Below are positions 430-25,123 of a stretch of 64,000 bases of DNA, piece by piece. Both the position numbers and the translations under genes were made by a program. Position 1 is the stretch's first letter, and every line of letters starts with the position of its first letter. This DNA is from Spirochaetales bacterium (lineage in GTDB: Bacteria; Spirochaetota; Spirochaetia; UBA9216), in assembly GCA_016839055.1 (NCBI GenBank), contig JAEKNX010000004.1:186001-250000 (forward strand), written 5' to 3'. The notes beneath the pieces were generated by a model. It was not told where the DNA came from and did not search any database. It worked only from the letters and a program-made list of their open reading frames with translations.

Positions 430-2054
430 ATTATTCAAAACTAATACTCTCCGGTACCTATAAGGAAACCGGGCGCCAGAGCAAAGGTTTGCTTTCTGCG
501 GCCGGAAGTGAAGGCTTTAGGTTTGACAGTTTTTATCTGAAGGTTGAAGCGCTTATACACAAATCGAAGGTAAAAAGAGTTCTTGTGATTTGCAGACAGG
601 ATTTTTCAGCTGGTGTTTTCGGCGGTCTGGAAGAAGTCTGTGAGAGGCTGAAGGCACTTAGGCGCAGCGGGAAGGAACTGTATTTTTACACTCCTGCCTA
701 CGGAGCGCCGCAGCTTTTTCTTGCCTCTGTCTGTACTCACAGACTCATACATCCCATGGGGTCTGTGCGGTTTTTAGGACTCTCGCTGTCCTTCAGTTTT
801 CTTAAGAGGATGATGAGAGGTCGAGGGATTAATGCCGAGATTCTGAGGCGCGGCAAATACAAGAGCGCCGGAGACCGATTCGGCACTGACAGCCTCGAGG
901 ACGCGGCCAGGGAGCAGTACGAACGCTACATTCAGTCGGTAATGTCGGTTATGAGGGAGGAAATAATAACCGGTTTTCAAAAGACTGATAAAGAGCTCGA
1001 TGCCCTTCTCGGCGGCGAAATTCTCAGCTCCGAGAAGGCCGTCAGTGACGGATGGATTGACCGGATAATAACTGAGAGTCAGCTTGAGAATGAATGGAAG
1101 AAAGAAAAAGATAAAGAAGTAAAGATAAAGAAAACAATGACTAAGAGCCGGCGCGGATTCAGCCTTATTGAAAGAAGGGTTGCGGTTCTTGTCTTTGAGG
1201 GCGCGGTTGTAGACGGTCATTCCCGGAGAGATCCGATTATGGGGCAGGCTGTCGGAGCTGACTCCTTCATTCCCCAGATAAGAAAACTCGCCGAGGACCG
1301 AAAAGTTAAAGCCGTTGTTTTTAGAATAAACTCCGGTGGGGGCTCGGCCTTTGCCTCCGAGAGCATCACGGCCGAGCTGCGCTCGCTCGCGGAGAAGAAA
1401 CCGCTCATTGTTTCAATGTCCGAGATTGCCGGTTCCGGCGGATACTGGATGTCATGCTGCGGGCAGAAAACATTCGCCCTTCGGACAAGCCTGACCGGAT
1501 CCATCGGAGTTATAAGCATCTATATTTCCTGGTTTAAGCTTCTTGAGCGGCTCGGGATTACCCACGATACAATCAAGATCGGAGAGCATGCCGATGCCGG
1601 CTCCCCCCTTCGGATGTTAACCGCGAAAGAACGTGAAATGCTTGATGCCGAGATTGGGACCATGTATGATAATTTCATTTCGATAGTAGCGGAGTTCAGA
1701 AATATTGCTAAGGATGAAGTGGACACCATGGCCCGGGGAAGAATTTGGTCAGGATCTGACGCTCTGGCTAACAGGCTTGTGGATGAGGCCGGAGGCTTGT
1801 CTGCTGCGATAAAAACAGCATCGGACGCCGCCCGGATAAAGAAACCTGTCGTTAAATTCTATCCTGAGATTACACATAGCCTTATTGAGCGGCTGATGAT
1901 GAATGCCTCGAAGGAAGATGAGAGCGCCGCCGAAATTCTTCAAAGCGGAGCCGCGCTTGGCTCTCTGCTGTATTCGTCAGGAGCTCTGAGAACGTCGGAA
2001 CAGATGAGTACGCCCGCGGCATTGATGGAAGAGGTTGTAAGTAAATGGATTTAG
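426..2054 (+). CDS. SppA-like signal peptide peptidase (family S49, double-domain type)
   Basis: At 542 residues this matches the long SppA form with two tandem S49 domains. The N-terminal half carries the general-base lysine in GKYKSAGD (Lys146) and the C-terminal half carries the nucleophile in AGSGGYW (Ser337), the same split Lys/Ser dyad as E. coli SppA. These enzymes cut leftover signal peptides and small membrane proteins. Unlike E. coli SppA, no N-terminal transmembrane helix is visible: the protein begins MNYSKLILSG and stays polar. It may therefore be cytoplasmic or held at the membrane by the coupled 57-residue protein. It overlaps the small gene upstream by 4 bases and the PocR-AraC gene downstream by 10 bases. 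Family assignment is firm; the substrate is unknown. Confidence 0.85.
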   Translation: MNYSKLILSGTYKETGRQSKGLLSAAGSEGFRFDSFYLKVEALIHKSKVKRVLVICRQDFSAGVFGGLEEVCERLKALRRSGKELYFYTPAYGAPQLFLASVCTHRLIHPMGSVRFLGLSLSFSFLKRMMRGRGINAEILRRGKYKSAGDRFGTDSLEDAAREQYERYIQSVMSVMREEIITGFQKTDKELDALLGGEILSSEKAVSDGWIDRIITESQLENEWKKEKDKEVKIKKTMTKSRRGFSLIERRVAVLVFEGAVVDGHSRRDPIMGQAVGADSFIPQIRKLAEDRKVKAVVFRINSGGGSAFASESITAELRSLAEKKPLIVSMSEIAGSGGYWMSCCGQKTFALRTSLTGSIGVISIYISWFKLLERLGITHDTIKIGEHADAGSPLRMLTAKEREMLDAEIGTMYDNFISIVAEFRNIAKDEVDTMARGRIWSGSDALANRLVDEAGGLSAAIKTASDAARIKKPVVKFYPEITHSLIERLMMNASKEDESAAEILQSGAALGSLLYSSGALRTSEQMSTPAALMEEVVSKWI

Positions 2055-3346
2055 AGACTTTTAATCAGAAGGCCCTGGATGCCGCAAAATATTATAAGGG
2101 TTCTACGGATATTGACTGCTTTGTCATCGATAAAGACGGAAAGCGGATAGACAGCGATGAGTCGGACTGTTTCGGTCATGAGTTCTGCAGGCAGATAGAG
2201 AGGATCTTTCCCGATCATGAGCTTGACTGCTCGCAGGTTCATAAGTACGGCAGTTATCAGGCAGAGCGGTTTGGCGGGAAGTACATGTTTTTCTGTCCCA
2301 TGTCGCTGCTACACTGGACCTCGCCCATTTTTCATCAGGGGATTCTCTCCGGGTCTCTTGTCTGCGGCCCGGCTTTGATAATTGATTCTGAAGATTTCAT
2401 ACGAAACGATCTGATTTCAGGAAAGAACCTTCCCGCGTCCGATGTTTTTCGGCTGATGAAACTTGCAGCCTCAATTCCGTCAATAACTACCGAGAGAGCC
2501 CGTAGTCTTTCCGAGCTTCTTCATTTAACGGCCTCGGGAGTATCTGAACTCGATCATCTGGAGTTTCAACTGCATCAGGAGAACTCAGAGCAGCAGAAGG
2601 AGATCTCGGAATATATCCAGTATATCAAGAAGATGGAAATTTCTGAGGCTGAAATTTCCCGGTATCCCTTTGAGAAGGAAACTGATCTTATAGATTATAT
2701 CGAGAATGGTGAGACTAAGCGGGCAAGGGCAGTGCTGAATGAAATTTTAGGCAATGTCTTTTTCTCCACCGGAGGGGATTTGAAGGTTATCAGGGCGAGG
2801 GTTCTTGAACTAGTTGTTCTCCTCTCAAGAGCAGCTGTACGCGGCGGAGCTGATGCCGAGCAGATTTTCGGAATGAACTATCAGTATATAAACAGAATCA
2901 GCTCCTTCACGAATATTGAATCAATTGCTTCCTGGCTGTCCATCGTTATCGGTAAATTCTCTGAACTGGTCTTCGATATGCGCGAGATAAAACATGCCGA
3001 CGCAATACAGAGGGCAATGCAGTATGTCAGAGAGCACTTTCATAATAAGATTTCGCTGGAAGATGCCGCCGACTTCGTTAATCTGTCCCCCTCATATCTC
3101 AGCAAGCTGTTTAAGAAGGAGCTTGATGTCAACTTTAACGCCTATCTCAATAAGATAAGGGTTGAGAAGAGCAAAAATTTTCTGCTGAATACCGAAATTC
3201 CGCTGATTGATATTGCCGGTATGTGCGGTTTTGAGGACCAGAGCTATTTTTCAAAGGTTTTTAAGAAATTTGCCGGAAGTTCGCCGGGCAAATTCCGTGA
3301 GAACCGAGGCCGTCCTTCGTTCGATACTCAGGAGGTTCACGGCTGA
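2045..3346 (+). CDS. PocR-domain AraC-family transcriptional regulator
   Basis: The N-terminal about 160 residues resemble the PocR sensory domain: a Cys/His-rich block (FGHEFCRQI, DCSQVHKYG, FFCPMSLLHW) and a GPALI segment. A helical linker of about 140 residues follows. The last about 100 residues are an AraC double helix-turn-helix, with KISLEDAADFVNLSPSYLSK as the first helix pair and IDIAGMCGFEDQSYFSKVFK as the second. PocR regulators control diol degradation and corrinoid methyltransferase operons. The position directly ahead of a cobalamin riboswitch and corrinoid genes makes this the probable activator of that cluster. The start at 2045 overlaps the peptidase gene by 10 bases, so it is translationally coupled to it. 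The inducer is unknown. Confidence 0.85.
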   Translation: MDLETFNQKALDAAKYYKGSTDIDCFVIDKDGKRIDSDESDCFGHEFCRQIERIFPDHELDCSQVHKYGSYQAERFGGKYMFFCPMSLLHWTSPIFHQGILSGSLVCGPALIIDSEDFIRNDLISGKNLPASDVFRLMKLAASIPSITTERARSLSELLHLTASGVSELDHLEFQLHQENSEQQKEISEYIQYIKKMEISEAEISRYPFEKETDLIDYIENGETKRARAVLNEILGNVFFSTGGDLKVIRARVLELVVLLSRAAVRGGADAEQIFGMNYQYINRISSFTNIESIASWLSIVIGKFSELVFDMREIKHADAIQRAMQYVREHFHNKISLEDAADFVNLSPSYLSKLFKKELDVNFNAYLNKIRVEKSKNFLLNTEIPLIDIAGMCGFEDQSYFSKVFKKFAGSSPGKFRENRGRPSFDTQEVHG

Positions 3347-3440
3347 GTATCGCAAGTACCCGCCATAAATTGCAAAATATAACAAAATAATTCAATACGA
3401 TTCGACTCTTCATGATGGATAATTAAACCCACAAGATTAT

Positions 3441-3575
3441 AAAGGTTGATTTTGAGGGAAGTGGAGTACAATCCTCCCGCGAGCGCGTCACTGTAAACGG
3501 TATGAATATGCCGGAGCCAGACTACTCTTATCAGCCGGTATGTCACACTCGTAACTCGCGCCCAGGGAGAGTAGA
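3441..3575 (+). promoter_or_regulatory. Cobalamin riboswitch upstream of the corrinoid protein gene
   Basis: The conserved core of the cobalamin aptamer is recognisable in order: GAGGGAAGTGGAGT near 3455, CAATCC near 3469, a C-rich/GCG segment, the B12-box-like CACTGTAA at 3489-3496, a CGG/CCG hairpin, and AGCCAGA at 3515-3521. After the core, CTACTCT (3522-3528) can pair with AGAGTAG (3568-3574) just before the ribosome binding site GAGGA (3581-3585). No oligo-T terminator lies between aptamer and gene, so control at translation initiation seems more likely than attenuation. The compact layout is closer to the short class of cobalamin riboswitches than to the long AdoCbl btuB type. Confidence 0.85.
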
Positions 3576-3590
3576 AAAAAGAGGAAACGA

Positions 3591-4226
3591 ATGGCAGATT
3601 TTGAAAAGATTTCTGAATTGATGCAGAAAGGAAGGGCAGACGAAGTTAAACAGCTTTGCGCGGACGCACTCGCTGAAGGTGTTGGACCGAAAGAGGTTCT
3701 CGAAAAAGGACTCCTTTCGGCGATGAATATCGTCGGTGAAAAGTTTAAGAACAATGAGGTCTTTGTTCCTGAGGTACTAATTGCCGCAAGAGCTATGAAT
3801 TTCGGCCTTGAAGTCTTGAAGCCGGCAATGGTTGACGGCGACATGGATGAGATTGGAAAGGTAGTTATCGGTACTGTTAAGGGAGATCTTCATGACATCG
3901 GAAAGAATCTCGTAAAAATCATGCTGGAAGGCAAGGGTCTTACAGTTATTGATCTTGGAGCCGATGTCTCGGCTGAAAAATTTATAGAGACAGCAATTAA
4001 TGAGAAAGCGAACATTATTGCCTGTTCAGCCCTGCTTACGACAACAATGACCCAGATGGAATCAGTAGTCAAAGCGGCTGTCGATGCAGGTATTCGTGAT
4101 AACATTACAATTATGGTAGGCGGAGCTCCTGTTACCCAGAAATTCTGTGATAGTATAGGCGCGGATATTTACGCAGCTGATGCGGCAACTGCTTCAGATA
4201 AGGCTCTTGAAGTATGCACCTCCTGA
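3591..4226 (+). CDS. Corrinoid (B12-binding) methyltransferase protein, MtaC/MtbC type
   Basis: At 211 residues this is the typical length of the methanol/methylamine corrinoid proteins. The N-terminal about 85 residues form the helical cap domain (EVLEKGLLSAM, FVPEVLIAARAMN). The Rossmann domain carries the base-off/His-on signature DLHDIG (Asp99, His101, Gly104), CSALLTTTM and VGGAPV. The histidine is expected to be the lower axial ligand of cobalt. The protein shuttles a methyl group between a substrate methyltransferase and an acceptor methyltransferase. It is preceded by a cobalamin riboswitch and followed by a strong terminator, so it is probably made in excess over the downstream enzymes. 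Its methyl donor cannot be told because no MT1-type gene lies nearby. Confidence 0.92.
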   Translation: MADFEKISELMQKGRADEVKQLCADALAEGVGPKEVLEKGLLSAMNIVGEKFKNNEVFVPEVLIAARAMNFGLEVLKPAMVDGDMDEIGKVVIGTVKGDLHDIGKNLVKIMLEGKGLTVIDLGADVSAEKFIETAINEKANIIACSALLTTTMTQMESVVKAAVDAGIRDNITIMVGGAPVTQKFCDSIGADIYAADAATASDKALEVCTS

Positions 4227-4258
4227 TGTTTGTCAATGAATCCATTGATGTAAATTAT

Positions 4259-4287
4259 AAAAACCGCCTTTTTCTGGGCGGTTTTAT
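4259..4287 (+). terminator. Intrinsic terminator after the corrinoid protein gene
   Basis: The stem CCGCC (4264-4268) pairs with GGCGG (4277-4281), extended by flanking A and T runs and followed by TTTT. Partial read-through would give the corrinoid protein more transcript than the methyltransferase operon behind it. Confidence 0.8.
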
Positions 4288-4381
4288 TGTATTAATCGAA
4301 ATGAATACAAAAATCAATAAATAAGTACAATATGAAATCATGGTTCAGACTTTAGAATTGAAGGATAATTCAGGAGGTAAT

Positions 4382-5731
4382 ATGACTGGAAAAGAAAAAA
4401 TAATTGCTGTTTTGAATAAAGAAAAAATAGATTCAATTCCCTGGCTGCCCTTTGCTGGAGTTCATGCCGGAAAACTCAAAGGTTATACGGCAAAAGAGGT
4501 TTCAACCGATGCGGGAAAGCTTATTGATTCCCTGCGTGAGGTGAATAAACTCTACAAGCCCGACGGACAGCCGATAATGTTTGATCTGCAGATTGAGGCC
4601 GAGATCCTGGGCTGTGAACTTCTGTGGTCCGAGGATGCTCCTCCGACGGTAGCATCACATCCGCTGTCGGATGTAAGCGACATTCCGACCCATATTCCGG
4701 CGGTCGACGAAGGCCGAATCCCCCTCTCTGTTGAGGCAATGAAGGCTATGAAAGCCGAGATAGGAGAGCATACCGCCCTCTACGGCCTGATAACCGGTCC
4801 GTTTACTCTGGCTTCGCATCTGCGCGGAACCAACATTTTCATGGACATGATCATGAATCCGGAATATGTAACATCTCTCCTTGAATATACTACAAGGGTG
4901 GCAAACGCTGTCGCCGGCTATTATATTGAAGCCGGTATGGACGTGATTGCGGTAGTTGATCCTCTTGTATCGCAGATTTCTCCGGCGCATTTCGCGGAGT
5001 TTATGGATAAGCCGTTTTCAAAAGTATTTGATTATATCAGGACTAATGGAGCCTTCTCATCTTTCTTTGTCTGCGGAAACGCTACTGCGAATATTGCTCC
5101 CATGTGTATGACCAAACCGGACAGTATTTCGGTGGATGAGAATGTTAATCTTGCCGAGGCCAAGAAGGTTACTGACAGCTTTGACATAGTGATAGGCGGT
5201 AATATCCCGCTGACATCAATAATGCTTTTCGGAACTCAGCAGGACAATATGAAAAATACAATCGATCTTATCGATAGCCTTGATAATACCGACAGACTGA
5301 TAATTGCACCGGGTTGTGATATGCCTTATGATATTCCAATTGAGAATACTATTGGGGTACAGCAGGCTGTTCATCAGACGGATCAGATAAGGGCAATGGT
5401 TGAGAACTATGAATGTACCGAGATTGTATTTGAGGGGGAGCTTCCTGATTATGCTAATCTCGAACGCCCGCTGATAGAAGTTTTTACCCTTGATTCGATA
5501 ACCTGTGCCGCTTGTACCTATATGAAGGCCTCGGCCATGGATATAAAAAAGCATTTCGGCGATAAGGTGGATATGGTCGAGTATAAATATACCGAGCCCC
5601 AGAATATCGCAAGGTGCAAGGTTATGGAAGTAAAACAGCTGCCGAGTATTTATATAAACGGAGAGCTTAAATACTCATCAATTATACCGAACCGGGCCGG
5701 GTTTGTCTCCGAGGTAGAGAAATGCCTATAG
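4382..5731 (+). CDS. UroD/MtaA-family methyltransferase fused to a C-terminal thioredoxin-like domain
   Basis: The start is set at ATG 4382 by AGGAGG at 4372-4377; an ATG 42 bases upstream has no such site. Residues 1 to about 350 form the URO-D/MtaA barrel that transfers methyl groups from a corrinoid protein to a thiol or other acceptor. The family's zinc motif is altered: the usual H-x-C-G-N is F-V-C-G-N here (Phe229, Cys231), while the distal Cys312 (PGCDMP) is kept. Residues from about 365 to the end look like a thioredoxin/glutaredoxin fold with a C-A-A-C pair (Cys375, Cys378) and a cis-Pro-like LPSIYI segment. The stop overlaps the CobW-type gene by 10 bases. The fusion suggests redox chemistry at the methyl acceptor or reduction of the corrinoid; this is inference. 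Confidence 0.85.
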   Translation: MTGKEKIIAVLNKEKIDSIPWLPFAGVHAGKLKGYTAKEVSTDAGKLIDSLREVNKLYKPDGQPIMFDLQIEAEILGCELLWSEDAPPTVASHPLSDVSDIPTHIPAVDEGRIPLSVEAMKAMKAEIGEHTALYGLITGPFTLASHLRGTNIFMDMIMNPEYVTSLLEYTTRVANAVAGYYIEAGMDVIAVVDPLVSQISPAHFAEFMDKPFSKVFDYIRTNGAFSSFFVCGNATANIAPMCMTKPDSISVDENVNLAEAKKVTDSFDIVIGGNIPLTSIMLFGTQQDNMKNTIDLIDSLDNTDRLIIAPGCDMPYDIPIENTIGVQQAVHQTDQIRAMVENYECTEIVFEGELPDYANLERPLIEVFTLDSITCAACTYMKASAMDIKKHFGDKVDMVEYKYTEPQNIARCKVMEVKQLPSIYINGELKYSSIIPNRAGFVSEVEKCL

Positions 5732-6651
5732 AAAGGAGTACGCCTCTGTTTCTGGTTTCCGGTTTTCTCGGCGCCGGAAAGACTACTTTTATAAACAATC
5801 TTATTACAAGTTATCCGGACAGCAGGTTCGGGATAATTGTTAATGATTTCGGCGAGATAGGAGTGGACGCCTTCCTGATTAAGAATCAGGAGAGGAACAT
5901 TGTTAAAGAATTGAATAACGGGCAGATCTTCTGTTCATGTTTGTCCGGTTCTTTTGTTAAATCGGTTTCAGAATACAGCGAAATTGATATTGACTATCTT
6001 CTGGTTGAAACCTCCGGACTTGCTAAGCCGTCCCCTCTTTTTGATATTCTGGGGGAAGTGAAAAAGCTCAACGGCAGGAGATTCATATATCACGGGATGA
6101 TCAGCATAGTTGATAGCTCGTCATATCTTAAACTGTCAAAGGTTTTGAATGCGGTTAATGAGCAGATCTTCTACAGTGATCTTGTTCTGATGAATAAGAT
6201 TGACCAGACTGATTCCGAGGCCGTGAAGAGGGTCGAGATGGAAATCCTGGCGGTCAATCCGCAGGTGAGAATTCTCCGGACCGAATTCGGCAGGGCGCCT
6301 GGCGAGCTGCTTGAAGGCATGAAAGAGAAAACGGAAATAGCCGCTGCCGACAGAAGGTTTTCGGGGTGGGGCTCCGGCCGTCCTGTTCCTCTAAGTCTCA
6401 GGAGTAAGACTCCCGTGCCGAAGAAGCGGCTTGAGGTTTTTATTAACAGCATTTCGGATGTTTATTACAGATTGAAAGGCGGAATTGAAAGTGACGAAGG
6501 CCCGCTCTTCATAGACTGCACAAGGGGGCAGATGAAAATCACTATCGGAAGTTTAACTACTGATGGGCTTGTTGTTATTTTGCCTGCTGATGATAATATA
6601 GTAAGAGACGTGAGAAAACGTGCTTCAGAACTTTTTGACCTAGTGAGTTAA
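5722..6651 (+). CDS. CobW/G3E-family P-loop GTPase
   Basis: GFLGAGKTTFI is the Walker A motif, ETSGLAKP the Walker B/switch region and NKID the guanine specificity motif. The metal-binding CxCC motif of many COG0523 members appears here as CSCLSG, with only two cysteines. The C-terminal part resembles a short CobW_C domain. These GTPases deliver metals or help load cofactors. Co-translation with a corrinoid methyltransferase (10-base overlap upstream, 1-base gap to the activator downstream) points to maturation or zinc/cobalt supply for the methyl transfer system. The usual length is 300-400 residues; this one is 309 and looks complete. Confidence 0.85.
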   Translation: MPIERSTPLFLVSGFLGAGKTTFINNLITSYPDSRFGIIVNDFGEIGVDAFLIKNQERNIVKELNNGQIFCSCLSGSFVKSVSEYSEIDIDYLLVETSGLAKPSPLFDILGEVKKLNGRRFIYHGMISIVDSSSYLKLSKVLNAVNEQIFYSDLVLMNKIDQTDSEAVKRVEMEILAVNPQVRILRTEFGRAPGELLEGMKEKTEIAAADRRFSGWGSGRPVPLSLRSKTPVPKKRLEVFINSISDVYYRLKGGIESDEGPLFIDCTRGQMKITIGSLTTDGLVVILPADDNIVRDVRKRASELFDLVS

Positions 6652-6652
6652 T

Positions 6653-8533
6653 ATGAAAATTACGCTGACAGTGTCCGGCAGGGACATGATTGCCGAAATA
6701 AAACAGGGAGAAAGCCTCCTCGATGCGGTCAACAAAGCTGGAATATCCGGTTTTGATGCCCCCTGCGGGGGGAAGGGGAGCTGCGGGAAATGCCGAATAG
6801 CTATATCGCCGATCGGGCCGACCATGCCGATCGGCGCCAAGCCGGGGTCTGAACCCGACGATGTGGAGAGGGATCTCCTTTCCGAGGCAGAACTTGGCTC
6901 CGGAATAAGACTGGCTTGCCGGGTTTATCCGGAAGGAGACATGAGCATTACTGTTCCTGACTCTGGAAGCACCGCTGTTATACAGACATCATTTTCCGGC
7001 GATTTTCATCAGCGGATCAAGGACGACTGCTCTCCTCTGAAAAAAACTTTTCTTGAACTTGCCCCGCCGTCTATCGATGATCAGCGGCCGGATTTTAAGC
7101 GGCTCTCGGATGCTCTGTCTGAGTCTGGAATAATGGCCGCGGCTGATTTAGTAATGCTGCGAAGGCTGCCGGACTTGCTCAGAGAGCATGATTATAAGGT
7201 GACGGTTTTGAGTCTTTCAGGCCGGCTTTGCGGGCTCGAAGGCGGAGATACTGTCTCTGATTCACGGGCTGTTGCGGTGGATATAGGGACGACAACAGTT
7301 GTGGCCTATCTTGTGGATCTTGCAGGCCCAGGCCGCGGCAGGGTCATTGACTTAGTCTCGGCCCTGAATGAGCAGAAAGGCCGGGGAGGGGACGTGATCT
7401 CCCGCATCGAATACTGTATGCGGCAGCCGGGGAATCTTGATGAACTCGGCAGCCGAATTCGTACTCAGATAAGCGGTATGGTCGCGGAACTATGCAGTCG
7501 TAACAATATAAGCATCAGCAGCATAGGAATGCTTACAATAGCGGGCAATTCAACGATGACGCATATTTTTTCGGGGTTTAATCCTCTAGGAATCGCCTTT
7601 GCTCCTTTTATTCCCGTTCACTCAGGCCTTTATTCCGGCAGCGGGACTTCTTTTGGTCTTCAGGCCGGAGAGATGTGCAGTTGTATGGTTCTTCCGGGTA
7701 TTTCAGCCTATGTGGGTTCAGACATTACTGCGGGGATAATCGCCTCAGAGATGCACAAGTCTGACGAGTTGTCGCTTCTGATTGATATCGGAACTAACGG
7801 GGAAATAGTCCTCGGAAGCAGCCGCGGGCTGAGTGCCTGTTCAACCGCCGCGGGGCCTGCCCTCGAGGGGGCGAACATCTCCTGCGGAATGGGCGGGGTA
7901 GAGGGCGCGGTTAACAGTATAACCGTCTCGGAGCGAGGCGAACATGAGGTTTTCTCACTGAGTGTAATCGGCGGGGGTAAGCCTGAAGGAATATGCGGTT
8001 CCGGAATCGTAGATGCCCTGGCAGTCTTCCTCGGCGCGGGGGTGATTGACGAGACAGGAAGAATCCGTACCGAGGCGGAGTTGACCGAAGACGGAATCTC
8101 GCGCGGATGGATAGAATGTCTTTCGGAGTCCGGAGGAAAGCCTGCCCTGAAGGTTTCCGCCGACATAATGATTACACAGATGGATATAAGAGAGATACAG
8201 ATGGCCAAGGCCGCGATAGCCGCGGGAATAAGAACCCTCCTTTCTGAAACCGGAAGGGCGACTACTGATATTAAAAGAGTATTTGTTGCCGGAGGTTTCG
8301 GTGCCGCGATGAACAAGGCAAGCGCTGCTGCAATAGGGCTATTCCCCTCCGATCTTGAACCTGTCGTCGAGATAGCGGGAAATACAGCCGGTAAGGGAGC
8401 AATACTTGCGGCACTCTCTGCCAGAGTACTGGATGAAATGGTGAAGGTCTCCGAAGATGTAGAGTATATTGAGTTGTCCACTAGCCTGAAATTTCAGCAG
8501 GAATATATGAATGAGATGTACTTCCGCCAGTAA
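6653..8533 (+). CDS. Ferredoxin-ASKHA reductive activator of corrinoid proteins (RACE, DUF4445 type)
   Basis: The N-terminal about 100 residues are a plant-type [2Fe-2S] ferredoxin with cysteines at 38, 44, 47 (PCGGKGSCGKC) and 89 (LACR). The remainder is the DUF4445/ASKHA ATPase: AVDIGTTTVVAYL (phosphate 1), IAGNSTMTHI, LIDIGTNGEIV (phosphate 2), GPALEGANISCGMGG and VAGGFGAAMN. These proteins use ATP to drive electrons uphill onto inactive Co(II) corrinoid. At 626 residues it has the normal length. The gene begins one base after the GTPase stop, so the three enzymes form one operon. It would reactivate the corrinoid protein encoded at 3591. Assignment is strong; the electron donor is unknown. 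Confidence 0.9.
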   Translation: MKITLTVSGRDMIAEIKQGESLLDAVNKAGISGFDAPCGGKGSCGKCRIAISPIGPTMPIGAKPGSEPDDVERDLLSEAELGSGIRLACRVYPEGDMSITVPDSGSTAVIQTSFSGDFHQRIKDDCSPLKKTFLELAPPSIDDQRPDFKRLSDALSESGIMAAADLVMLRRLPDLLREHDYKVTVLSLSGRLCGLEGGDTVSDSRAVAVDIGTTTVVAYLVDLAGPGRGRVIDLVSALNEQKGRGGDVISRIEYCMRQPGNLDELGSRIRTQISGMVAELCSRNNISISSIGMLTIAGNSTMTHIFSGFNPLGIAFAPFIPVHSGLYSGSGTSFGLQAGEMCSCMVLPGISAYVGSDITAGIIASEMHKSDELSLLIDIGTNGEIVLGSSRGLSACSTAAGPALEGANISCGMGGVEGAVNSITVSERGEHEVFSLSVIGGGKPEGICGSGIVDALAVFLGAGVIDETGRIRTEAELTEDGISRGWIECLSESGGKPALKVSADIMITQMDIREIQMAKAAIAAGIRTLLSETGRATTDIKRVFVAGGFGAAMNKASAAAIGLFPSDLEPVVEIAGNTAGKGAILAALSARVLDEMVKVSEDVEYIELSTSLKFQQEYMNEMYFRQ

Positions 8534-8642: not shown

Positions 8643-8795
8643 CAGTAGTTCGGAATTTGGCTGCCCTTGTATGCCGCCGCTGGGGGCCCCGGTGCCGCCT
8701 GAGAAAAATTGAGGTCTTCCGAACCTTTTTCTGACGGTGTCGGGGTCAGCAAGGGCCGACATTCGGAGGGATTGCAGTCAAATTCAGAATTGCTG
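8643..8795. repeat. Nested imperfect inverted repeat, possible structured RNA
   Basis: The arms 8643-8664 and 8774-8795 are complementary over 22 positions: 18 Watson-Crick pairs, with most of the rest G-U pairs on the + strand. Inside, GCCCTTG (8663-8669) pairs exactly with CAAGGGC (8750-8756), and AGGT (8712-8715) with ACCT (8723-8726) flanked by A5/T5. The element ends just before the promoter of the sensor operon. It contains no convincing gene. It may be a structured RNA, a transcript-end element or a small decayed mobile repeat. Confidence 0.55.
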
Positions 8796-8812
8796 TACTT
8801 CCGCCGTGATTG

Positions 8813-8860: not shown

Positions 8861-10579
8861 ATGGAATTTGAGTCCTGCCTGGTTTTTCTTTTTTTGTTAT
8901 TCTCATTAATTATGCCGCTTGCTGCGACCGCGCAGGTATCTGACCCTGATGTCCTATATGAGCAGAATGCAGTAGTTATAATCGGATGTGACAGAGATTA
9001 TCCTCCGATGAGTTATATGAAGAATTATAAACCCGCAGGATTTGATATAGAAATAATAAACAGACTAGCTCACTCTGGCAAGTTTGAAGCTGAAATACAG
9101 GCAACTGAATGGACGCTCGTCCTATCAAGCCTCCTGAATGGCCAGATTGACGCGGCTTCCGGAATGATCCGGACTGCGGAGCGGACGAAATTGTTTGATT
9201 TCAGTATCCCTTATCTTTCTGAGTCGTATGCAGTCTTTACCCATGCGGACTCGAAGCTGTCTTCAATTCATGATCTCAAAGGCCGAAGAATTGCGATTCT
9301 TGAGAATGATGCAATAATTGAAACCTTTATCACCCCCTATGATCTTGATGATAACATGATTCTTACATCCTCATTTTTCACGGCACTGCAGCTTGTATCA
9401 AGCGGTGATGCCGACTATACAATTGCGCCCTATTCAATGGGGCTTAAGGCAAGGGATGCGCTGAATCTGAATGAGCTGAAACCGTCTGAACGATCACTCT
9501 TGACCGTTGAATATCGTTTTGCTGTAAGAAAAGGCAGGAGTGAACTTCTTTTTAAATTGAATGATGCTCTCAGGGAGCTCTATGAAGCCGGGACACTAGA
9601 TACATTGTATGATGAGTCGGATTTTTCCAGGCAATTCTTCCTTAGCTCAAATAATGTCCATTCTCAGTCTTTTTTGGGTTTTGTACTTATTGTGGCAGCT
9701 GTGTTTATTGTAATAATGTTTCAAAAATTTATTCAGCGGAGAATGCAGATACAGGTTGCGAAGATAGAATCACAGAAGATGATATTTGAATCAGTTATAG
9801 ATAGTCTTCCGGTGATGATATCCTGGAAGAGCAGTGACCTTGAGGTTCAGGGATGCAACAGCCGCTGCAGGGCGTCCGATGGCTCCTCATTGCAGGCACG
9901 GGTTTCAGAATCCGCAGTTCTTCGAAGAGGAAAATCAACCGTTGAATACATAAGTAGCAGCCTGTCAGGGGATTATGAGTGCAGGCGGATTACCTGCCTG
10001 CCGCTTATTGACGGAAACGATAAGGTCTGCGGGGTTTTAGGGCTCGGCGAAGATTATACTGAACAACGGCGGCTGTCTTCTTTAGTAGAAAAAATTTCCG
10101 GACAGCTTATTTTGAAAGTTGCCGAACTGGAGCAGCTCAGGCTTACTGATTTGAATACCGGCTTGTTTAATCATTGGTATCTCCGGAGTAAGATTTCCGA
10201 GGAAAATGAGCTGTATTCAGTCTACGGTCAGAAGTTTTGTGTCATGCTGATAGAAGCTGAGTATTATCAACCTGTGAATGCAGAGCTGGGAAAAATAGAA
10301 GAATCTAATATAATTCTTTACACAGCTGATCTATTAAAGATGAATTTGAGGCAGTCTGATATTGCAGGCCGTCTTGACTGCGGAAAATTTGTCATTATTC
10401 TGCCGAAGACCAGTCTTGAAGAGGCCGGGAAGGTGACTGAAAATTTTTTGAATAATATCGAATCCGGTACTAAAAACATCCGCTTTCATTGCGGAGTATT
10501 TGAACTTCCTTCGGAAAAACCCGATGAGCTGCCAGCAGAAGTTAGAGAACTACTAAATAATAAGCGAGATTTATCTTAG
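8861..10579 (+). CDS. Periplasmic-binding (SBP_bac_3) sensor with PAS and degenerate GGDEF domain
   Basis: The start is set at ATG 8861 by GAGG six bases upstream and by the promoter just before it. A signal peptide (LFLLFSLIMPLAATAQ) leads into a type-3 solute-binding domain (VIIGCDRDYPPMSY to about residue 240). A transmembrane helix (FLGFVLIVAAVFIVIMF), a PAS-like domain and a C-terminal GGDEF-like fold follow. The GGDEF signature is replaced by DCGKF, so cyclase activity is not expected, but the preceding RQSD sits where the c-di-GMP inhibitory RxxD site lies. The protein probably senses an amino-acid-like ligand and passes the signal to the coupled kinase; its stop overlaps the next start by one base. 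Its output route is not evident. Confidence 0.8.
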   Translation: MEFESCLVFLFLLFSLIMPLAATAQVSDPDVLYEQNAVVIIGCDRDYPPMSYMKNYKPAGFDIEIINRLAHSGKFEAEIQATEWTLVLSSLLNGQIDAASGMIRTAERTKLFDFSIPYLSESYAVFTHADSKLSSIHDLKGRRIAILENDAIIETFITPYDLDDNMILTSSFFTALQLVSSGDADYTIAPYSMGLKARDALNLNELKPSERSLLTVEYRFAVRKGRSELLFKLNDALRELYEAGTLDTLYDESDFSRQFFLSSNNVHSQSFLGFVLIVAAVFIVIMFQKFIQRRMQIQVAKIESQKMIFESVIDSLPVMISWKSSDLEVQGCNSRCRASDGSSLQARVSESAVLRRGKSTVEYISSSLSGDYECRRITCLPLIDGNDKVCGVLGLGEDYTEQRRLSSLVEKISGQLILKVAELEQLRLTDLNTGLFNHWYLRSKISEENELYSVYGQKFCVMLIEAEYYQPVNAELGKIEESNIILYTADLLKMNLRQSDIAGRLDCGKFVIILPKTSLEEAGKVTENFLNNIESGTKNIRFHCGVFELPSEKPDELPAEVRELLNNKRDLS

Positions 10580-13194
10580 TGGAGCAGAAGCTTAAATTTT
10601 CTATATTTCTGATAGCCGGCATTAGTCTGTCTGTGATAATAATCAATCTTATTCCGTTTCTCATTCAGCCTTCGAAACCCAAAGGTGCCGGGCTGATCTC
10701 CTCGAAAATGTTTTTTTTGGAAACCGAAAAGAGGAAATCATCATTTGACTTAAAGAGCATTGATGAAAGTTACCAGAAATTCCAGATGGATAGACTAATT
10801 AGTAATAGCCGGTTTGCCTATTTGTGGCTTGAAATATCCAACCGCGGTGAGGAAGACCGCGAAATTGTATTTACTAACAGAACCCGGAATTATTATACCG
10901 AACTGCTGTTACCGGAGGCTTCGGGAGCTGTTACACTGTCCCGTCATGGAGATATTGTGCCGGTTTTCAAGTGGTCCTTCAGGCATTATAAGCCAGGATT
11001 CCCTCTAATTATTCCCGCCGGCTCAACAGGCTGGTATGTCGTCGAATATCACGGACCTAGAGGGCTCACGATTGATCCCGAAATCCTGAGTTCCTCCGAA
11101 TGGGTTAACAGGCTAGCAATAGAGCGCAGTCTATCCGGTTTTTTATGCGGCGCATTTGTCTTTCTGCTGCTGATAATTACCTTGAATGGATTCTTGCTCA
11201 ACCGGAAATATTTTTATTCTACTATCTTCTTCATCGCATCAGTGTTTTTCTTCTTTTTAAAGCAGAGTGGAATTCTCCTGCTGATAATCGATCCATGGAT
11301 ATATCCGGAATGGCTGTATCCTCTGTCTATAGCCCTTAATCTGTTAAGTGTACTGTTTTTATCGAGGATCATTCTCAGTGATTATCTGAGCCTGCAGAAG
11401 GTGGTTATCCTAAAAAGCATCGAGGGGATTACTATTCTCCTGACTGCGGCGGCTCTATTTTATGAGCCCTATATAATTGCTGATATTCTCAACCTTCTCT
11501 CCCTCGCCGCGTTGCCTGTTATAATAAACGGCGTGTACCTTGCGGTCCGAAAGCGAGATGAGGGGGTTCTTTTCATTGTATTATCTTTCATCCCCTGTAT
11601 TTTCATGCTTGCCCTCGACATCATTTCCGCCAATATGGATGTTCGGCTGACTCTATCCTCCGACTACCTTCAGGCGTTCGGGATGATTGCATCACTGCTT
11701 TTTCTGTCAATTACCCTCCAGTATGTACGGGGGCAGAAGCAACAAATGATGTATATCGAAACTTCTAAAGAACTCAGACAGGCCTGTATTTCGAGGGCTG
11801 AGCATGTTACATCGGTAACAGAGCTGCGCTCTTCGGTGCTGCACCAGGTCGGTTATCAGCTGCGGCAGCCGCTTGATTCTATTCTGGCCCTGTCCTCGAT
11901 TCTCGCGAACGAGTACGCAGACCCCCGAATAGCCGCAGTAAGCAAGATGCTCTCTTCTGAGGCGGGAGAACTTAAAAGAAAAATTGAAAATGAAGTAGGA
12001 AATCTCGGTTCGAGCGATGTTTCGCTTGTGCAGGCAGAAGCCTTCGATGATCACGAAAATATGTTCAGTTATATTCCTGCCCCGCGTCCCTGGATAAACT
12101 CCCGAATCTGTATCTATGATACTGACCCGAGACATGACGCTCGTACAGCCCTGATCCTGCGCTCAAGAGGTTATGAGGTTGACGTGTCCTCGGATCATTA
12201 CCAGATATTATCTTTGGTCTCCGGCGGAAAGATAGACGTGTTGATAATTGACCCTACTACAGCGGGTGAAAGCGCCTTTTCATTATGCGCCCTTATTCGT
12301 GGGGATCATAATCTGTTTGATATCCCGATTCTCATGATAATAAATTACCAGGCTGATTATCTTCTAAAGAAGGGCTATGCTGCAGGAGTAAACGATTTTC
12401 TTACCAGACCCTTTGATGCCGTAGAGCTGGCGGCAAGGATAGAGTCCCTTGTGAGACTCAAGCAGGTTGCAAGGTATAACCATGATCTTGCAAGGTCCGA
12501 GAAAGAGAAGAATATCTTTCTCTATTTTCTCACTCACAACATTAATACCCCGCTTACGCTGCTTTTGAACAGAGTGAATGAATTAAAGGATATTGATGAC
12601 CTGGGAGAACTATATGAGATTACCGATGATCTCCTGGCTTCCAGCCGGGAGATAAGTGATATGGTTCAGAATATGCTCATTTCTTTCCGTTTATCGGACG
12701 GAAGGCAGACGGTCAGACTCAATGAAATAGAAATGAAGCCGATTATTTACGCGGTCGAGCGGGATTTGCAGAAGAAGGCTGAAGATAAGCAGCAGAAGCT
12801 GATAATAGACCTGCCCCGGGAGATTCCCGCTGTGATGGGGGATTTTACTGCTGTAAGGGGTATACTGTATAATCTGCTTGATAACGGACTGAAGTTCACT
12901 CCCCCTGGCGGCGAAGTTCGGCTTGCTGTTACGGCAGCTGATGCTGTCGTACTGGAGGTCAGTGATACCGGCCCGGGAATCCATGAATCCGAACAGGGTC
13001 GGCTTTTTAAACGTTTTGAGCGTCTGTCTACTCAGCCAACCGCAGGTGAGTCGTCAACCGGTCTTGGTTTGTATGTCGCCTTCGAACTTGCTCGGATGAA
13101 CGGTGGAGAACTTGAGTATCATCCGGGGGAGGATGGGGCCTGTTTCAGGCTGACCCTGCCGAGGTTTTATAAGGAGACGGCAACCGATGAATAA
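10579..13194 (+). CDS. 7TMR-DISM hybrid sensor histidine kinase with internal receiver
   Basis: The GTG start at 10579 shares a base with the upstream TAG. Order of parts: an extracytoplasmic 7TMR-DISM extension (about residues 35-180), seven transmembrane helices (about 190-395), a HisKA-like helix in which the phospho-acceptor site reads GYQLRQPL (Tyr426 where His is expected), and a receiver-like domain (about 508-630). The receiver has Asp558, but Arg610 stands where the invariant Lys should be. An active-looking HisKA (THNINTPL, His653) and a HATPase with N box (NLLDNGLKF), DTGPGI and TGLGLY motifs complete it. An internal receiver ahead of the kinase core is unusual. The gene overlaps the next by 8 bases. 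It is the only complete kinase of the operon. Confidence 0.85.
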   Translation: MEQKLKFSIFLIAGISLSVIIINLIPFLIQPSKPKGAGLISSKMFFLETEKRKSSFDLKSIDESYQKFQMDRLISNSRFAYLWLEISNRGEEDREIVFTNRTRNYYTELLLPEASGAVTLSRHGDIVPVFKWSFRHYKPGFPLIIPAGSTGWYVVEYHGPRGLTIDPEILSSSEWVNRLAIERSLSGFLCGAFVFLLLIITLNGFLLNRKYFYSTIFFIASVFFFFLKQSGILLLIIDPWIYPEWLYPLSIALNLLSVLFLSRIILSDYLSLQKVVILKSIEGITILLTAAALFYEPYIIADILNLLSLAALPVIINGVYLAVRKRDEGVLFIVLSFIPCIFMLALDIISANMDVRLTLSSDYLQAFGMIASLLFLSITLQYVRGQKQQMMYIETSKELRQACISRAEHVTSVTELRSSVLHQVGYQLRQPLDSILALSSILANEYADPRIAAVSKMLSSEAGELKRKIENEVGNLGSSDVSLVQAEAFDDHENMFSYIPAPRPWINSRICIYDTDPRHDARTALILRSRGYEVDVSSDHYQILSLVSGGKIDVLIIDPTTAGESAFSLCALIRGDHNLFDIPILMIINYQADYLLKKGYAAGVNDFLTRPFDAVELAARIESLVRLKQVARYNHDLARSEKEKNIFLYFLTHNINTPLTLLLNRVNELKDIDDLGELYEITDDLLASSREISDMVQNMLISFRLSDGRQTVRLNEIEMKPIIYAVERDLQKKAEDKQQKLIIDLPREIPAVMGDFTAVRGILYNLLDNGLKFTPPGGEVRLAVTAADAVVLEVSDTGPGIHESEQGRLFKRFERLSTQPTAGESSTGLGLYVAFELARMNGGELEYHPGEDGACFRLTLPRFYKETATDE

Positions 13195-14737
13195 CTCACT
13201 TAAGTATTACATTGTCGCCGTTGTCATTTTTGTATCTTTTCTTATTCTGACTGTTTTTAATGCTTATGATGAAGCTTTGGAATTAAAATCTTTCACCAGA
13301 GAAAGGGAGTTGCCGGCTCTTGGCCTTGTCGCTTATTCAAGGCTTAACAATATTGCCGAATATTACAAGAGGGCCGGAGAAAACCTTTTGCAGGGTGATT
13401 TCCTCAAGAACTGGATTGTTGACGGCGAAAAGGATCCTGACAAGCTGGTTTACTTTATGGAAGAGGTTAGGCTTAGGGGTGGGCTGCTCGACGCGAGTCT
13501 GGTGAGTGATTTGACCGAGACCTATTACGGAACAGATGGGCGGATTCTAAAGCTGTCTCCTTTGAATGCTGAACGTGATGGTTGGTATTATCATTATCGT
13601 AAATCCGTTAGAGAGTCTAATATTGACTCATGGTATTATCCGGAGACCGGGGTCATTGGTCTCTATGTAAACATACCCGTCAGGGATGATGATGGAAACT
13701 ATATAGGGGTAACAGGCGGCGGTGTCGACTCAACGGTTTTCGGCCGGCTTCTGCACTCACTTGAAAGCGAGTGGCATGTAAGGATCTATATGGTCAGAAA
13801 TGACGGGCGTCTTGTCTATGCTACGGAAAACCAGCTTCTCCGGCCGCCTGGGAAGATGCTTGACGATATATGGGAAACCTCAGTCCTTGACCGAATAAGC
13901 AGGGAGAAGAATAATGTCGGAGGAATAGTTCTTGAACCAGGCGGGAAGGCCTCCCCTGTCCTTTGGGCTGGATATATGCCTGAATGGGAGACCTTTCTGA
14001 TTCTCGAGCAGGAAGGGGCAATTTTTGGCGCTGAGGCTCGCTCTGCTTTCATTAGTTCTCTGATTTCAGGCAGCTTTCTTGCAATTTCCCTGTTTCTTCT
14101 TACCATGGCTGTTCTTCGGTTTGTCTCACGCAGGGCTGACCAGTCGGTAAGAGCAAGTAGAGGCTTTGTTCACAGGTTTCAGTCTGTAATTTATTTCCAG
14201 AATTTAATGCTGGAAAATATGGAAAAAACTCTCAGAGAATACGGAAATGTGGCTACAGCAATAAAGCTTAGAACTGAAAGAGAAGCTCTGAAATTGATGA
14301 TGGCTTCAGGCAGTCTGGAAGGCACCAAAATGCGGGTGAATCTGAATGAAGTAATTCAGGATCTGCTGTTGAAAAAGACATCCGATTTCCAGATAAGAAG
14401 AATCAATCTTCACAGCAGACTCTCATCGAGTCAGTTCATAGTCTCAGGAAACGATGCCCTCATCACCCTTGTTCTCGAGGAGCTTCTTGATATGGCAGCC
14501 GATGGGGTCGCCGCTGTCGCTGGTGACTCAGAGATTGTACTGCTTTCAGGCAGCAATATGCAGTCTGTTTCGGTTGATATTGCGTTTCAGACAGAGAAAG
14601 GAACAAGGCGGGAAATTGATTTCTCGCTGCTTCTGCCTGTTCTATCGGCAATGAATGCTTCTCTGGAAATAAATGATCCGCATCCTGGGGGGTGTGTCTT
14701 TCATCTTGAGTTCCGGATTCCTGGTGAATATACGTAG
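13187..14737 (+). CDS. dCache sensor protein with degenerate histidine-kinase-like C-terminus
   Basis: A transmembrane helix (residues 7-25), a periplasmic domain of about 240 residues with dCache features (DGWYYHYRKS, IGLYVNIPVRDDDGNYIGV), a second helix (about 287-305) and a C-terminal region of about 200 residues. The last part has the spacing of a kinase core, but no phospho-acceptor His motif and no G boxes; only TLVLEELLDMAAD recalls an N box. It is probably a pseudokinase or a co-sensor working with the kinase encoded just upstream (8-base overlap). Its 3' end runs 37 bases into the oppositely oriented response-regulator gene. Confidence 0.75.
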   Translation: MNNSLKYYIVAVVIFVSFLILTVFNAYDEALELKSFTRERELPALGLVAYSRLNNIAEYYKRAGENLLQGDFLKNWIVDGEKDPDKLVYFMEEVRLRGGLLDASLVSDLTETYYGTDGRILKLSPLNAERDGWYYHYRKSVRESNIDSWYYPETGVIGLYVNIPVRDDDGNYIGVTGGGVDSTVFGRLLHSLESEWHVRIYMVRNDGRLVYATENQLLRPPGKMLDDIWETSVLDRISREKNNVGGIVLEPGGKASPVLWAGYMPEWETFLILEQEGAIFGAEARSAFISSLISGSFLAISLFLLTMAVLRFVSRRADQSVRASRGFVHRFQSVIYFQNLMLENMEKTLREYGNVATAIKLRTEREALKLMMASGSLEGTKMRVNLNEVIQDLLLKKTSDFQIRRINLHSRLSSSQFIVSGNDALITLVLEELLDMAADGVAAVAGDSEIVLLSGSNMQSVSVDIAFQTEKGTRREIDFSLLLPVLSAMNASLEINDPHPGGCVFHLEFRIPGEYT

Positions 14738-15417
14738 CCGACATTTTTTATTGTTTTTATGTAGTGAGGCCGGGACGGGTTGTCTTCGATAAGTGATCTT
14801 AGGTGCCTTATGTGGACATAGAGGCTGCCCTCCTTCCTGTCGTCGAGGGAGTCCCATATACGGTTATACAGAAGCTCGTATGAAACTACCATGCCCGGAT
14901 GACGGACGAAGAAGAGGAATAAATCAAACAATTTTTTCCTCATTACAATGGGATCTCCGTTTTTGGTTACGCTTAATAAGTTGATATCAAGGCTGAAAGG
15001 CCCGCTTTTAATAACTTCGCTGATAGCGCTTCTTTCCTCATTCTGATGCGCTGAACGCTTTAAAAGTCGTTTAACCCTCCCGAGGAGCTCCTCTATATAG
15101 AAGGGTTTTGTAATATAGTCGTCACAGCCGATATTAAAACCGTCTACCTTTATATCCTGATTATCAATTGAAGACACAATTATAATCGGCAGGTATTCTT
15201 CCTGTTTCCGTATGGTTCGAAGAATCTCTATTCCGTCATAGTCGCCGAGCCGGAGATCAAGCAGGATTAGATCGGGATACTGCTGTTTGAGCAGGCTGTA
15301 TGCCGCTTTTTCGGAGTCAGCCTCAAGAACAGAATATCCTGCCTTTTTGAGGTTTGAACATACATAACGCCGAAGGCGGCCATTGTCTTCTATAACAAGA
15401 ATCAGTTTTTTTTCCAT
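14701..15417 (-). CDS. OmpR/PhoB-family response regulator
   Basis: The receiver begins LILVIEDNGRLRR and keeps the acidic pair, the phospho-acceptor Asp (LILLDLRLGD) and the Lys in YITKPF. The C-terminal winged helix (MRKKLFDLFLFF, LYVHIRHLRSLIED, TIKNVGYVY) is of OmpR type. ATG 15417 is preferred over the adjoining TTG at 15420. No Shine-Dalgarno sequence is visible, and a TATACT box lies only 7 bases upstream, so the message may be leaderless. The gene converges on the three-sensor operon and overlaps the dCache gene by 37 bases, which suggests it is the output of that system. Tandem repeats at its promoter suggest autoregulation. Confidence 0.88.
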   Translation of the reverse strand: MEKKLILVIEDNGRLRRYVCSNLKKAGYSVLEADSEKAAYSLLKQQYPDLILLDLRLGDYDGIEILRTIRKQEEYLPIIIVSSIDNQDIKVDGFNIGCDDYITKPFYIEELLGRVKRLLKRSAHQNEERSAISEVIKSGPFSLDINLLSVTKNGDPIVMRKKLFDLFLFFVRHPGMVVSYELLYNRIWDSLDDRKEGSLYVHIRHLRSLIEDNPSRPHYIKTIKNVGYVYSPGIRNSR

Positions 15418-15424
15418 CAAATGT

Positions 15425-15507
15425 AGTATACAGGACTCTTATTAAATTATCTTAAATTATATTGAAAATTTTATGATGTTTTTCTCTAGATTTAAGATTG
15501 ATTTAAG
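15425..15507. promoter_or_regulatory. Divergent promoter region with tandem OmpR-type repeats
   Basis: TTAAATTAT occurs at 15442-15450 and again at 15452-15460 (10-bp period), and TTTAAG at 15491-15496 and 15502-15507 (11-bp period). One-turn spacing of direct repeats is typical of OmpR/PhoB binding sites. On the minus strand a TATACT box (15425-15430) stands at the response-regulator start with the first repeat pair over the -35 position. On the plus strand the second pair stands just upstream of a TATATT box (15518-15523) for the secreted protein gene. Confidence 0.5.
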
Positions 15508-15595
15508 GTGGGCCTGTTATATTCACATAATTAAACAGTATCTATTTTTTTGGAGGGCGAAGGGGCCTTCCGCTAGATAACTCAAGGAGAATGAA

Positions 15596-16318
15596 ATGAG
15601 AAAAACATTATTGATTTTAGCGCTGCTTATTGCAGTAACGGGCTTTGCGTCAGCAGCTGATTTAACAGGATTTCACAGCAGTCCTACTGACAGAGCAATA
15701 GGTTCTTTAGCGATTACAGGAGCGGGACAGGGTGTAACCTTAACTTATTCTGACAGCACGGTTGATGCAAAAATTGCTCTTGGTGAGACGAGTATTTCGC
15801 TTTCAAGTATTCAGATCTTCGGCGACGCAGGAGAAGGTTTTCTAAACTTTTACACCCAGGAGACCGTTTCTTATGCTTTCGGCGGATCTTATTCGGTAAA
15901 CGGAGTTTCAGAGGTGATAACTGACGCGGCCGGGTATTTCTTTTCAGCCACCATGGGCGTTTCTACAAACCTGCCTACTTTCGTAGAAGGCCTCGAGATT
16001 ATGGCAGGCCTCGGATATCACCTGGACTGCGGATATGCTGCAATGACTTATGGTACTAATGGCTTAACTGGTCTTTTTGATCTGAGTCTCGCCGGCCTTG
16101 GTTTGAATCTTGTTGCCGACTATGCTCTCCTTGGAGATTTTGGTCTAAGTCTTAGTATCGACTGGTCAGTGGACTTTTACAGTCTTACAATACCGCTTTC
16201 AGGTTTTTCAACTACTGTTGATGATATAATTGCTACTCCCGGCATGAACTTCGGCATCGCAGTTGGAATTTCAATTCCTATGGCGCTGGCAGACGAGTTT
16301 GCTGTTGAAACTTATTAA
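15596..16318 (+). CDS. Secreted protein, probable outer-membrane beta-barrel
   Basis: AAGGAG precedes ATG 15596. A clear signal peptide (LLILALLIAVTGFASAA) is followed by about 220 residues of alternating polar and hydrophobic short strands, rich in Gly, Ser, Thr and Tyr with few charges (for example GVTLTYSDST, FYSLTIPLSGF). It ends in an aromatic residue (VETY), as many outer-membrane barrels do. No known family is recognised. A hairpin-forming leader (GCGAAGG/CCTTCCGC) precedes the gene. The promoter carries tandem repeats that a linked OmpR-type regulator could bind, so regulation of an envelope protein by the neighbouring sensor system is plausible. Confidence 0.65.
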   Translation: MRKTLLILALLIAVTGFASAADLTGFHSSPTDRAIGSLAITGAGQGVTLTYSDSTVDAKIALGETSISLSSIQIFGDAGEGFLNFYTQETVSYAFGGSYSVNGVSEVITDAAGYFFSATMGVSTNLPTFVEGLEIMAGLGYHLDCGYAAMTYGTNGLTGLFDLSLAGLGLNLVADYALLGDFGLSLSIDWSVDFYSLTIPLSGFSTTVDDIIATPGMNFGIAVGISIPMALADEFAVETY

Positions 16319-24379: not shown

Positions 24380-25123
24380 TCAATATTTAAATACGAAGCT
24401 TTCCCGGTTCTTCCCGGAATCTATTATCAGTTCAGACATTTCTGTTTTGATGGAAATAACTCCGGTAATTACATCTTCTAATTCTTTTTTAACGGTTTTA
24501 TAGAATAGCCGCCGATTTTGTTCCACAACAGTCTGGTTTCGCCTGTCTTCGAGCAGGCTTTCATCAAAGGGAGTCAGGAATCCGTTTATTCCGATCTCGA
24601 GGTTATTACTTCCCAGGAAAACATTGATACTTTTGGGACCCTTCCCGGTTTTTTTCTTGAGGAAGGCCGATATTTCAAGCCGTAATTCTTTCTCTACTTC
24701 TTTTTTGCGGTGAATGTCGACCTGGAGAAAGCTTCCTCTGTCTTTCAAGATCCTGGCGGCGATTTTTTCAAGAGTTTGACTCAGGTCTTCGGTATCAATA
24801 GGCTTTATAATATATCTGTCAATACCGAGTTCTACTGTCTTCAGGATTGATCCGGTATCCTCGAGGGCTGATGTAATCAGTACCGGACAGTTTGCGCCGG
24901 TTTCTCTGATTTTTTCAATCATCTGAATTCCTCCCAGTCCTTCCATCAGCAGGTCTGCAATTATAATGTCCGGCTTGCTTTCTTTGAACTTCAGCAGTCC
25001 TTCATTCCCGTCAGAGGCTGTGACTACTCGTGAAAAGCGGCGTTTAAGGAATTTTTCCATTTGAAGGCGGGTTTCGGGCTCATCTTCCACATAGAGCAGC
25101 TTGAGATTGAATAATTCATTCAT
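24380..25123 (-). CDS. Response regulator with C-terminal MpsC/DUF2294 domain
   Basis: Residues 1 to about 125 form a receiver: acidic pair in LLYVEDEPETR, phospho-acceptor Asp in IIIADLLMEGL, switch Thr/Ser in VLITSALED and Lys in YIIKPID. The remaining about 110 residues match the DUF2294 (MpsC) pattern: KKKTGKGPKSINVFLG, LEIGINGFLTPFDESLLE and VITGVISIKTEMS. MpsC is linked to a Na+-dependent membrane-potential system in Staphylococcus; its role as a response-regulator output is not established. No DNA-binding domain is present. The gene overlaps the sensor kinase gene by 8 bases. Confidence 0.75.
   Translation of the reverse strand: MNELFNLKLLYVEDEPETRLQMEKFLKRRFSRVVTASDGNEGLLKFKESKPDIIIADLLMEGLGGIQMIEKIRETGANCPVLITSALEDTGSILKTVELGIDRYIIKPIDTEDLSQTLEKIAARILKDRGSFLQVDIHRKKEVEKELRLEISAFLKKKTGKGPKSINVFLGSNNLEIGINGFLTPFDESLLEDRRNQTVVEQNRRLFYKTVKKELEDVITGVISIKTEMSELIIDSGKNRESFVFKY

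Follow-up and report, generated by a model that had tools for sequence, protein, structure and literature searches.

Several described signalling systems resemble parts of the locus analysed here. In the RetS-GacS-GacA multikinase network of Pseudomonas, a 7TMR-DISM kinase associates with another membrane kinase, and the two determine the output of a single regulator (PMC5992135). LvrB, from the spirochaete Leptospira, is a Rec-controlled histidine kinase (PMC13269768), and in Corynebacterium the ChrS pseudokinase, which arose by laboratory evolution, pairs with the live kinase HrrS and changes the regulator's output (PMC9491836). The promoters of the streptococcal CiaRH regulon carry the direct repeat TTTAAG-N5-TTTAAG at 10 bp from the -10 hexamer (PMC3091779), and the same repeat is found with PmrA of Acinetobacter (PMC10927774). 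Among periplasmic sensors, the purine-sensing dCache_1PU class, which includes McpH, is defined by a motif of five residues, Y-R/K-W-F-D/N (PMC11245519).

RetS/GacS-like pairing, Rec-controlled kinases, histidine pseudokinases and CiaR/PmrA boxes are all known kinds. What is new at the present locus is their combination: a live kinase that contains a dead DHp, a dCache pseudokinase whose gene is coupled to that of the kinase, and a predicted lipoprotein regulon of CiaR type.

The locus and its conservation across Spirochaetia

The locus lies in a window of 64,000 nucleotides (the whole stretch of DNA that was analysed) from a 5.0-Mb genome of the class Spirochaetia, G000. Three genes for membrane sensors, which we call A (8861..10579), B (10579..13194) and C (13187..14737), are encoded on the + strand, and they converge with the gene for a response regulator, RR, on the - strand (15417-14701). 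The initial annotation had described overlaps of 1 and 8 nt and three sensors facing a single OmpR-type regulator, and the open reading frame coordinates bear this out: position 10579 is both the end of A and the start of B (TAGTG), B and C share 8 nt at 13187..13194 (ATGAATAA, + strand), and C and RR overlap convergently by 37 nt, the ATG of RR standing at 15417. A TTG at 8810 is a possible start for A, and the ATG at 8861, which has GAGG just upstream, is the likelier one.

It had also been proposed to look for the same gene order in other genomes. B and C, convergent with RR, occur together in five genomes from two families: the window genome, three sister species (G001, G002 and G003) and a member of the other family, G068. 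The last was picked up (E 4e-168) when the first 640 residues of B were run against 395 Spirochaetia genomes, and in it the whole arrangement of A, B, C and convergent RR recurs in the same order. The order is thus conserved, and the result named beforehand as a refutation, loss of this order, did not arise. One of the sister species, G003, is 'Candidatus Thalassospirochaeta sargassi', of the same genus (contig JAQQAL010000011); in G002 the cluster is spread over two contigs, both of which end inside B. The identity of the three sister species to the window is 44-48% for B, 33-41% for C and 59-68% for RR.

The overlap between B and C is ATGNNTAA, exactly 8 nt, in all five genomes, and translational coupling of the two genes is predicted from it. 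Gene A, on the other hand, is complete in the window and in G068 (29% identity), shortened in G002, and absent from the locus in G001 and G003 on inspection. Since A varies while the B/C overlap does not, we take B, C and RR to be the conserved unit and A to be an accessory. This bears directly on the idea, put forward in the initial annotation, that the three sensors form one complex. An obligatory ternary complex integrating three ligands would agree with the adjacency of A, B and C in the window, with the 1-nt overlap of A and B, with the same order in the other family, and with the position of the shortened A before B in G002. But A is missing from two of the sister species, lacks the solute-binding domain in the third, and stands 216 bp from B in G068. 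We consider such a complex unlikely, and as a general rule it is not supported.

The region upstream of the sensors holds SppA and a corrinoid-methyltransferase operon (2045-8533), which comprises a PocR/AraC regulator, a corrinoid protein, a fusion of a URO-D methyltransferase with thioredoxin, CobW and RACo. The fusion gene (4340-5731) encodes a methyltransferase of the URO-D family (MtaA-like) with a C-terminal thioredoxin-like domain (CAAC), and the operon is conserved in G001, where the upstream gene order is as in the window. The gap between RACo and A contains a large imperfect hairpin (8643-8795; fold z-score -2.6, with 22-nt arms that are 82% complementary), which may be a mobile or repeated element; no Rfam match was found anywhere in the window, the hairpin included.

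Depending on how much weight is given to this neighbourhood, one might suppose that the sensors regulate the methyltransferase operon and sense its methylated substrate. The operon does adjoin the sensors in the window and in G001, but in G002 SppA stands directly before the shortened A, and neither SppA nor the operon is found near the cluster in G003; moreover, the operon has a PocR/AraC regulator of its own, and no pair of TTTAAG elements of the kind described below was seen between RACo and A. We regard this reading as very improbable: the gene orders of G002 and G003 led us to reject the link, and the association of the sensors with methyl metabolism is positional.

Two simpler systems are related to the one in the window. 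In G006, from another genus of the same family, and in G051, from another family, a related RR (42-46% identity) shares an operon with a dCache protein whose cytoplasmic part is all but missing; this operon is convergent with a gene for a dCache-HAMP histidine kinase that lacks a receiver, and the promoter box described below is also found upstream of the related RR. The two systems are located at L108 7001-10401 and L053 9135-12266, and the G051 kinase ends early in its contig. A kinase, a dCache companion and an RR of this kind thus recur together.

One intact kinase and its proposed partners

The domains of B in Pfam are 7TMR-DISM_7TM (9e-9), Response_reg (8e-10), HisKA (3e-7) and HATPase_c (1.7e-20), so that a 7TMR-DISM region is joined to a complete HisKA-HATPase core, as in 7TMR-DISM histidine kinases. 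The H (His653), N, G1 and G2 motifs are invariant in all five genomes, and B is the only one of the three sensors with a complete core in all of them. The claim that only the middle protein has a full kinase core therefore stands, and since this is so, the sequence leaves A and C no role but that of non-catalytic inputs, which is the one the initial annotation gave to the outer proteins. That annotation had missed two further features of B. Upstream of the HisKA domain lies a first DHp whose histidine is absent from all five proteins, its position being taken by Tyr (Tyr426 in the window) in four orthologues and by Asn in the fifth. Between the two lies a receiver, directly N-terminal to the DHp-CA core, in which the Asp (Asp558) is invariant in 5/5 and the usual Lys is replaced by Arg in 4/5. 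The receiver placed directly before DHp and CA is the layout of LvrB, a Rec-controlled kinase; unlike LvrB, B is membrane-bound, carries a 7TMR-DISM region and a His-less DHp ahead of its receiver, and lacks the Lys in four of the five species. A structure model of the cytoplasmic half of B (pLDDT 58) was too poor for use.

As for the ligand of B, a carbohydrate-like compound had been suggested. The 7TMR-DISM assignment is upheld, but the ligand class is weakly indicated, as the match to 7TMR-DISMED2 is marginal in the window (E 0.2), although it reaches 1.1e-5 in the G003 orthologue.

RR has the expected domains of the OmpR/PhoB family (Response_reg 5e-26; Trans_reg_C 3e-18, with a normal winged helix), and its Asp55 and Lys105 are present and invariant. 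The genome of the window yields dozens of kinase-like matches; going by genetic linkage alone, the best reading is that B would be the kinase of RR.

The C protein had been described as a dCache pseudokinase, and both halves of this description are upheld. The dCache_1 match itself (4e-7) lies under the Pfam cut-off, while a profile of C matches the dCache domain of McpH (8bmv) at 4.5e-12, its closest solved relative. In the cytoplasmic half, an alignment of all five genomes shows no His at the H-box and none of the residues of the N, G1 and G2 motifs, and Pfam finds no HATPase match. A structure model of this half (pLDDT 68, pTM 0.43), compared by Foldseek, matches solved histidine kinases: NifL (2.7e-11), the catalytic domain of ThkA (TM 0.69), RetS and DivL. 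By sequence, a search of the PDB with the C tail gave only NifL, at a non-significant E of 0.084, and no significant kinase match, and a profile-profile comparison with B gave no significance. Because sequence methods alone fell short, the significance of the kinase fold depends on a model of moderate quality, according to which the C tail would be a catalytically dead kinase. We also considered whether C might be an eroded diguanylate cyclase, and rejected this in view of the kinase-like model of its cytoplasmic half.

It is important to ask whether the dead module does anything at all. C could be a co-receptor that acts through its periplasmic dCache domain only, with a cytoplasmic part that is a non-functional remnant; the cytoplasmic part is less conserved than the dCache domain, and the dCache companions of the related RR in G006 and G051 make do almost without one. 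With decay, however, one would expect broken frames in some species, and the module is open, kinase-like and 23-33% identical in four species, and can still be aligned in G068. We thus judge a mere remnant to be improbable. A companion with a dead kinase module is found only in the lineage where a dead DHp and a receiver are part of the kinase: the DHp1-REC segment of B and the pseudokinase of C co-occur in five genomes, and both are missing from the G006 and G051 systems. When the class genomes were searched with the C tail, four strong matches were obtained, together with weaker matches between 1e-5 and 1e-7; as this search missed G068, the lack of a match elsewhere does not prove absence.

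The ligand of C may be approached through its likeness to McpH. Of the five motif positions, four are compatible (W140 is Trp, F167 is aromatic, D169 is Asn, and Y121 is Tyr or Phe), but the position of R129 holds neither Arg nor Lys. Since one of the five positions fails, a purine ligand is a guess. The same type of sensor also occurs in G032 (L043 9983-11479), where a dCache domain with 39% identity to the one in C precedes or follows an intact GGDEF domain in a single protein; this sensor has thus been coupled to different outputs.

For A, Pfam detects SBP_bac_3 (2e-29) and a GGDEF domain (4.5e-13) with the motif DCGKF, separated by a membrane helix, which agrees with the solute-binding domain and degenerate GGDEF previously described; the PAS domain also described is not detected by Pfam. 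Among solved structures, the solute-binding domain comes closest to a 'sensor protein' and to amino-acid-binding proteins, so the domain is of amino-acid type by homology; the amino-acid-like ligand once proposed has this homology as its sole and weak basis. At the GGDEF position, A and its two homologues have DCGKF, SGGRF and VTREF, and all three keep the RxxD I-site (RQSD, READ and RKSD, respectively). Loss of GGDEF with retention of RxxD is the pattern of degenerate-GGDEF receptors for c-di-GMP, and the degenerate domain of A may read c-di-GMP.

Promoter boxes and a predicted lipoprotein regulon

In all four members of the genus, the intergenic region upstream of RR contains two facing copies of a box of the form TTTAAG-N5-TTTAAK-N10-TANNAT, one for RR and the other for a secreted-protein or lipoprotein gene. 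In shuffled regions, 0.008-0.05 matches per region would be expected at up to one mismatch. The window copy for RR (15425..15456, - strand) reads TTTAAG-N4-TTTAAT-N10-TATACT, with a spacer of N4 where the three sister species have N5, and the facing copy (15491..15523, + strand) reads TTTAAG-N5-TTTAAG-N10-TATATT. The RR promoter of G068 has a box with one mismatch, the sole match in its 3.5-Mb genome, and none was found in two genomes of the G068 family without the system. In 5/5 genomes, 6-8 nt separate the end of the RR -10 hexamer from the ATG (7 nt in the window). From this closeness a leaderless mRNA is predicted, and the RR transcript is probably of that kind; the leaders of the RR target genes are longer.

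Apart from the N4 spacer of the window RR copy, the boxes have the CiaR/PmrA form, TTTAAG-N5-TTTAAG at 10 bp before the -10 hexamer, and the repeat is likely to be the binding site of RR. The direct repeat is the same as for CiaR and PmrA, and the distance to the -10 hexamer matches that of CiaR; the organisms, sensors and targets are different, and recognition of the same kind by RR is predicted from the box only.

We scanned the full motif over seven genomes, G000-G006, with the same motif reversed as a control. There are 14 perfect matches as compared with 0 for the reversed motif; 7 are at RR loci, and each of the 7 elsewhere is intergenic and precedes a gene for a lipoprotein or secreted protein. 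With up to one mismatch the totals are close, 43 versus 34 in the control. For this reason the regulon rests on the perfect matches, on their context and on homology. As for context, we inspected 30 of the 43 matches and 30 of the 34 control matches, calling secretion by a simple rule. Intergenic positions account for 26/30 of the real matches and 6/30 of the control matches, and positions both intergenic and upstream of a secreted protein for 17/30 and 2/30 (Fisher p 5e-5); when the matches at RR loci are removed, the proportion is 13/23 (p 1e-4). In G031, which has no known system, there is one perfect match, not at a lipoprotein or secreted-protein gene.

Homologous targets across species provide independent support for the regulon. 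A predicted target lipoprotein of about 485 aa is shared by G000, G001 and G006, and one of 145 aa by G001 and G002; G002 and G006 have a secreted 'WDLPG' protein in common, and G000 and G003 another lipoprotein. In the window genome, box matches place RR itself, the divergent gene at 15596-16318 (+ strand) and the sites G000:C1:126759, G000:C43:468753 and G000:C5:37772 in the predicted regulon.

The gene divergent from RR differs between species: the three sister species have a lipoprotein pair at this place, G068 has a lipoprotein, and the window has an unrelated secreted protein of 240 aa without a Pfam match, a predicted RR target. The pair (L030 12329-14086 and L040 11215-13030) consists of a protein of about 217 aa followed by an ankyrin-repeat protein of about 340 aa; in the window genome no match to the first was found, and only ankyrin-repeat matches to the second. 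Elsewhere in the window, 24380-27056 holds a second pair that, from its sequence, resembles a response regulator and a membrane sensor.

A proposed extended two-component system

The reading we prefer, with a probability of roughly 0.6, is an extended two-component system in which B would act on RR, and RR on a regulon of envelope lipoproteins, with C always and A sometimes modulating B. The working kinase would be B, its activity set by the 7TMR-DISM part and the internal receiver. C would be translated in step with B, and its dead kinase module would contact B, most likely at the His-less first DHp or the adjoining helices. A periplasmic ligand bound to the dCache domain of C would then shift B between kinase and phosphatase states. 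Where A is present, it would add a solute-binding input, and its degenerate GGDEF may read c-di-GMP. Phosphorylated B would phosphorylate RR, and RR in its phosphorylated form would bind TTTAAG-N5-TTTAAG boxes that lie 10 bp before the -10 hexamer. It would thereby activate the RR gene, the gene for the divergent surface protein and lipoprotein genes scattered over the genome.

As in RetS-GacS-GacA, two membrane sensors would converge on one regulator, and the model of C resembles RetS; here the pairing is predicted from gene coupling. In Pseudomonas the 7TMR-DISM protein, RetS, modulates GacS, whereas in the present system the intact kinase is itself the 7TMR-DISM protein, and the gene for the dead dCache kinase beside it overlaps the kinase gene by a strict 8 nt. 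The dead kinase beside a live one also recalls ChrS and HrrS, but in C the catalytic loss spans five species from two families and extends to the His.

A more speculative proposal, which we hold to be possible though doubtful, is that a kinase with a His-less DHp co-evolved with a docking dCache pseudokinase, such that a bundle of dead and live parts gates the internal receiver, with a c-di-GMP-reading sensor on top, and controls the surface-lipoprotein regulon. If this were true, an integrator made largely of dead signalling modules would control that regulon.

In two bacterial families the locus keeps a catalytically dead histidine kinase next to a live one, and, given the predicted promoter box and the list of targets, the role of the dead partner could be measured with a simple reporter. 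A limited literature search found no control circuit of this type for the surface lipoproteins of free-living spirochaetes; the present system is a candidate for such a circuit.
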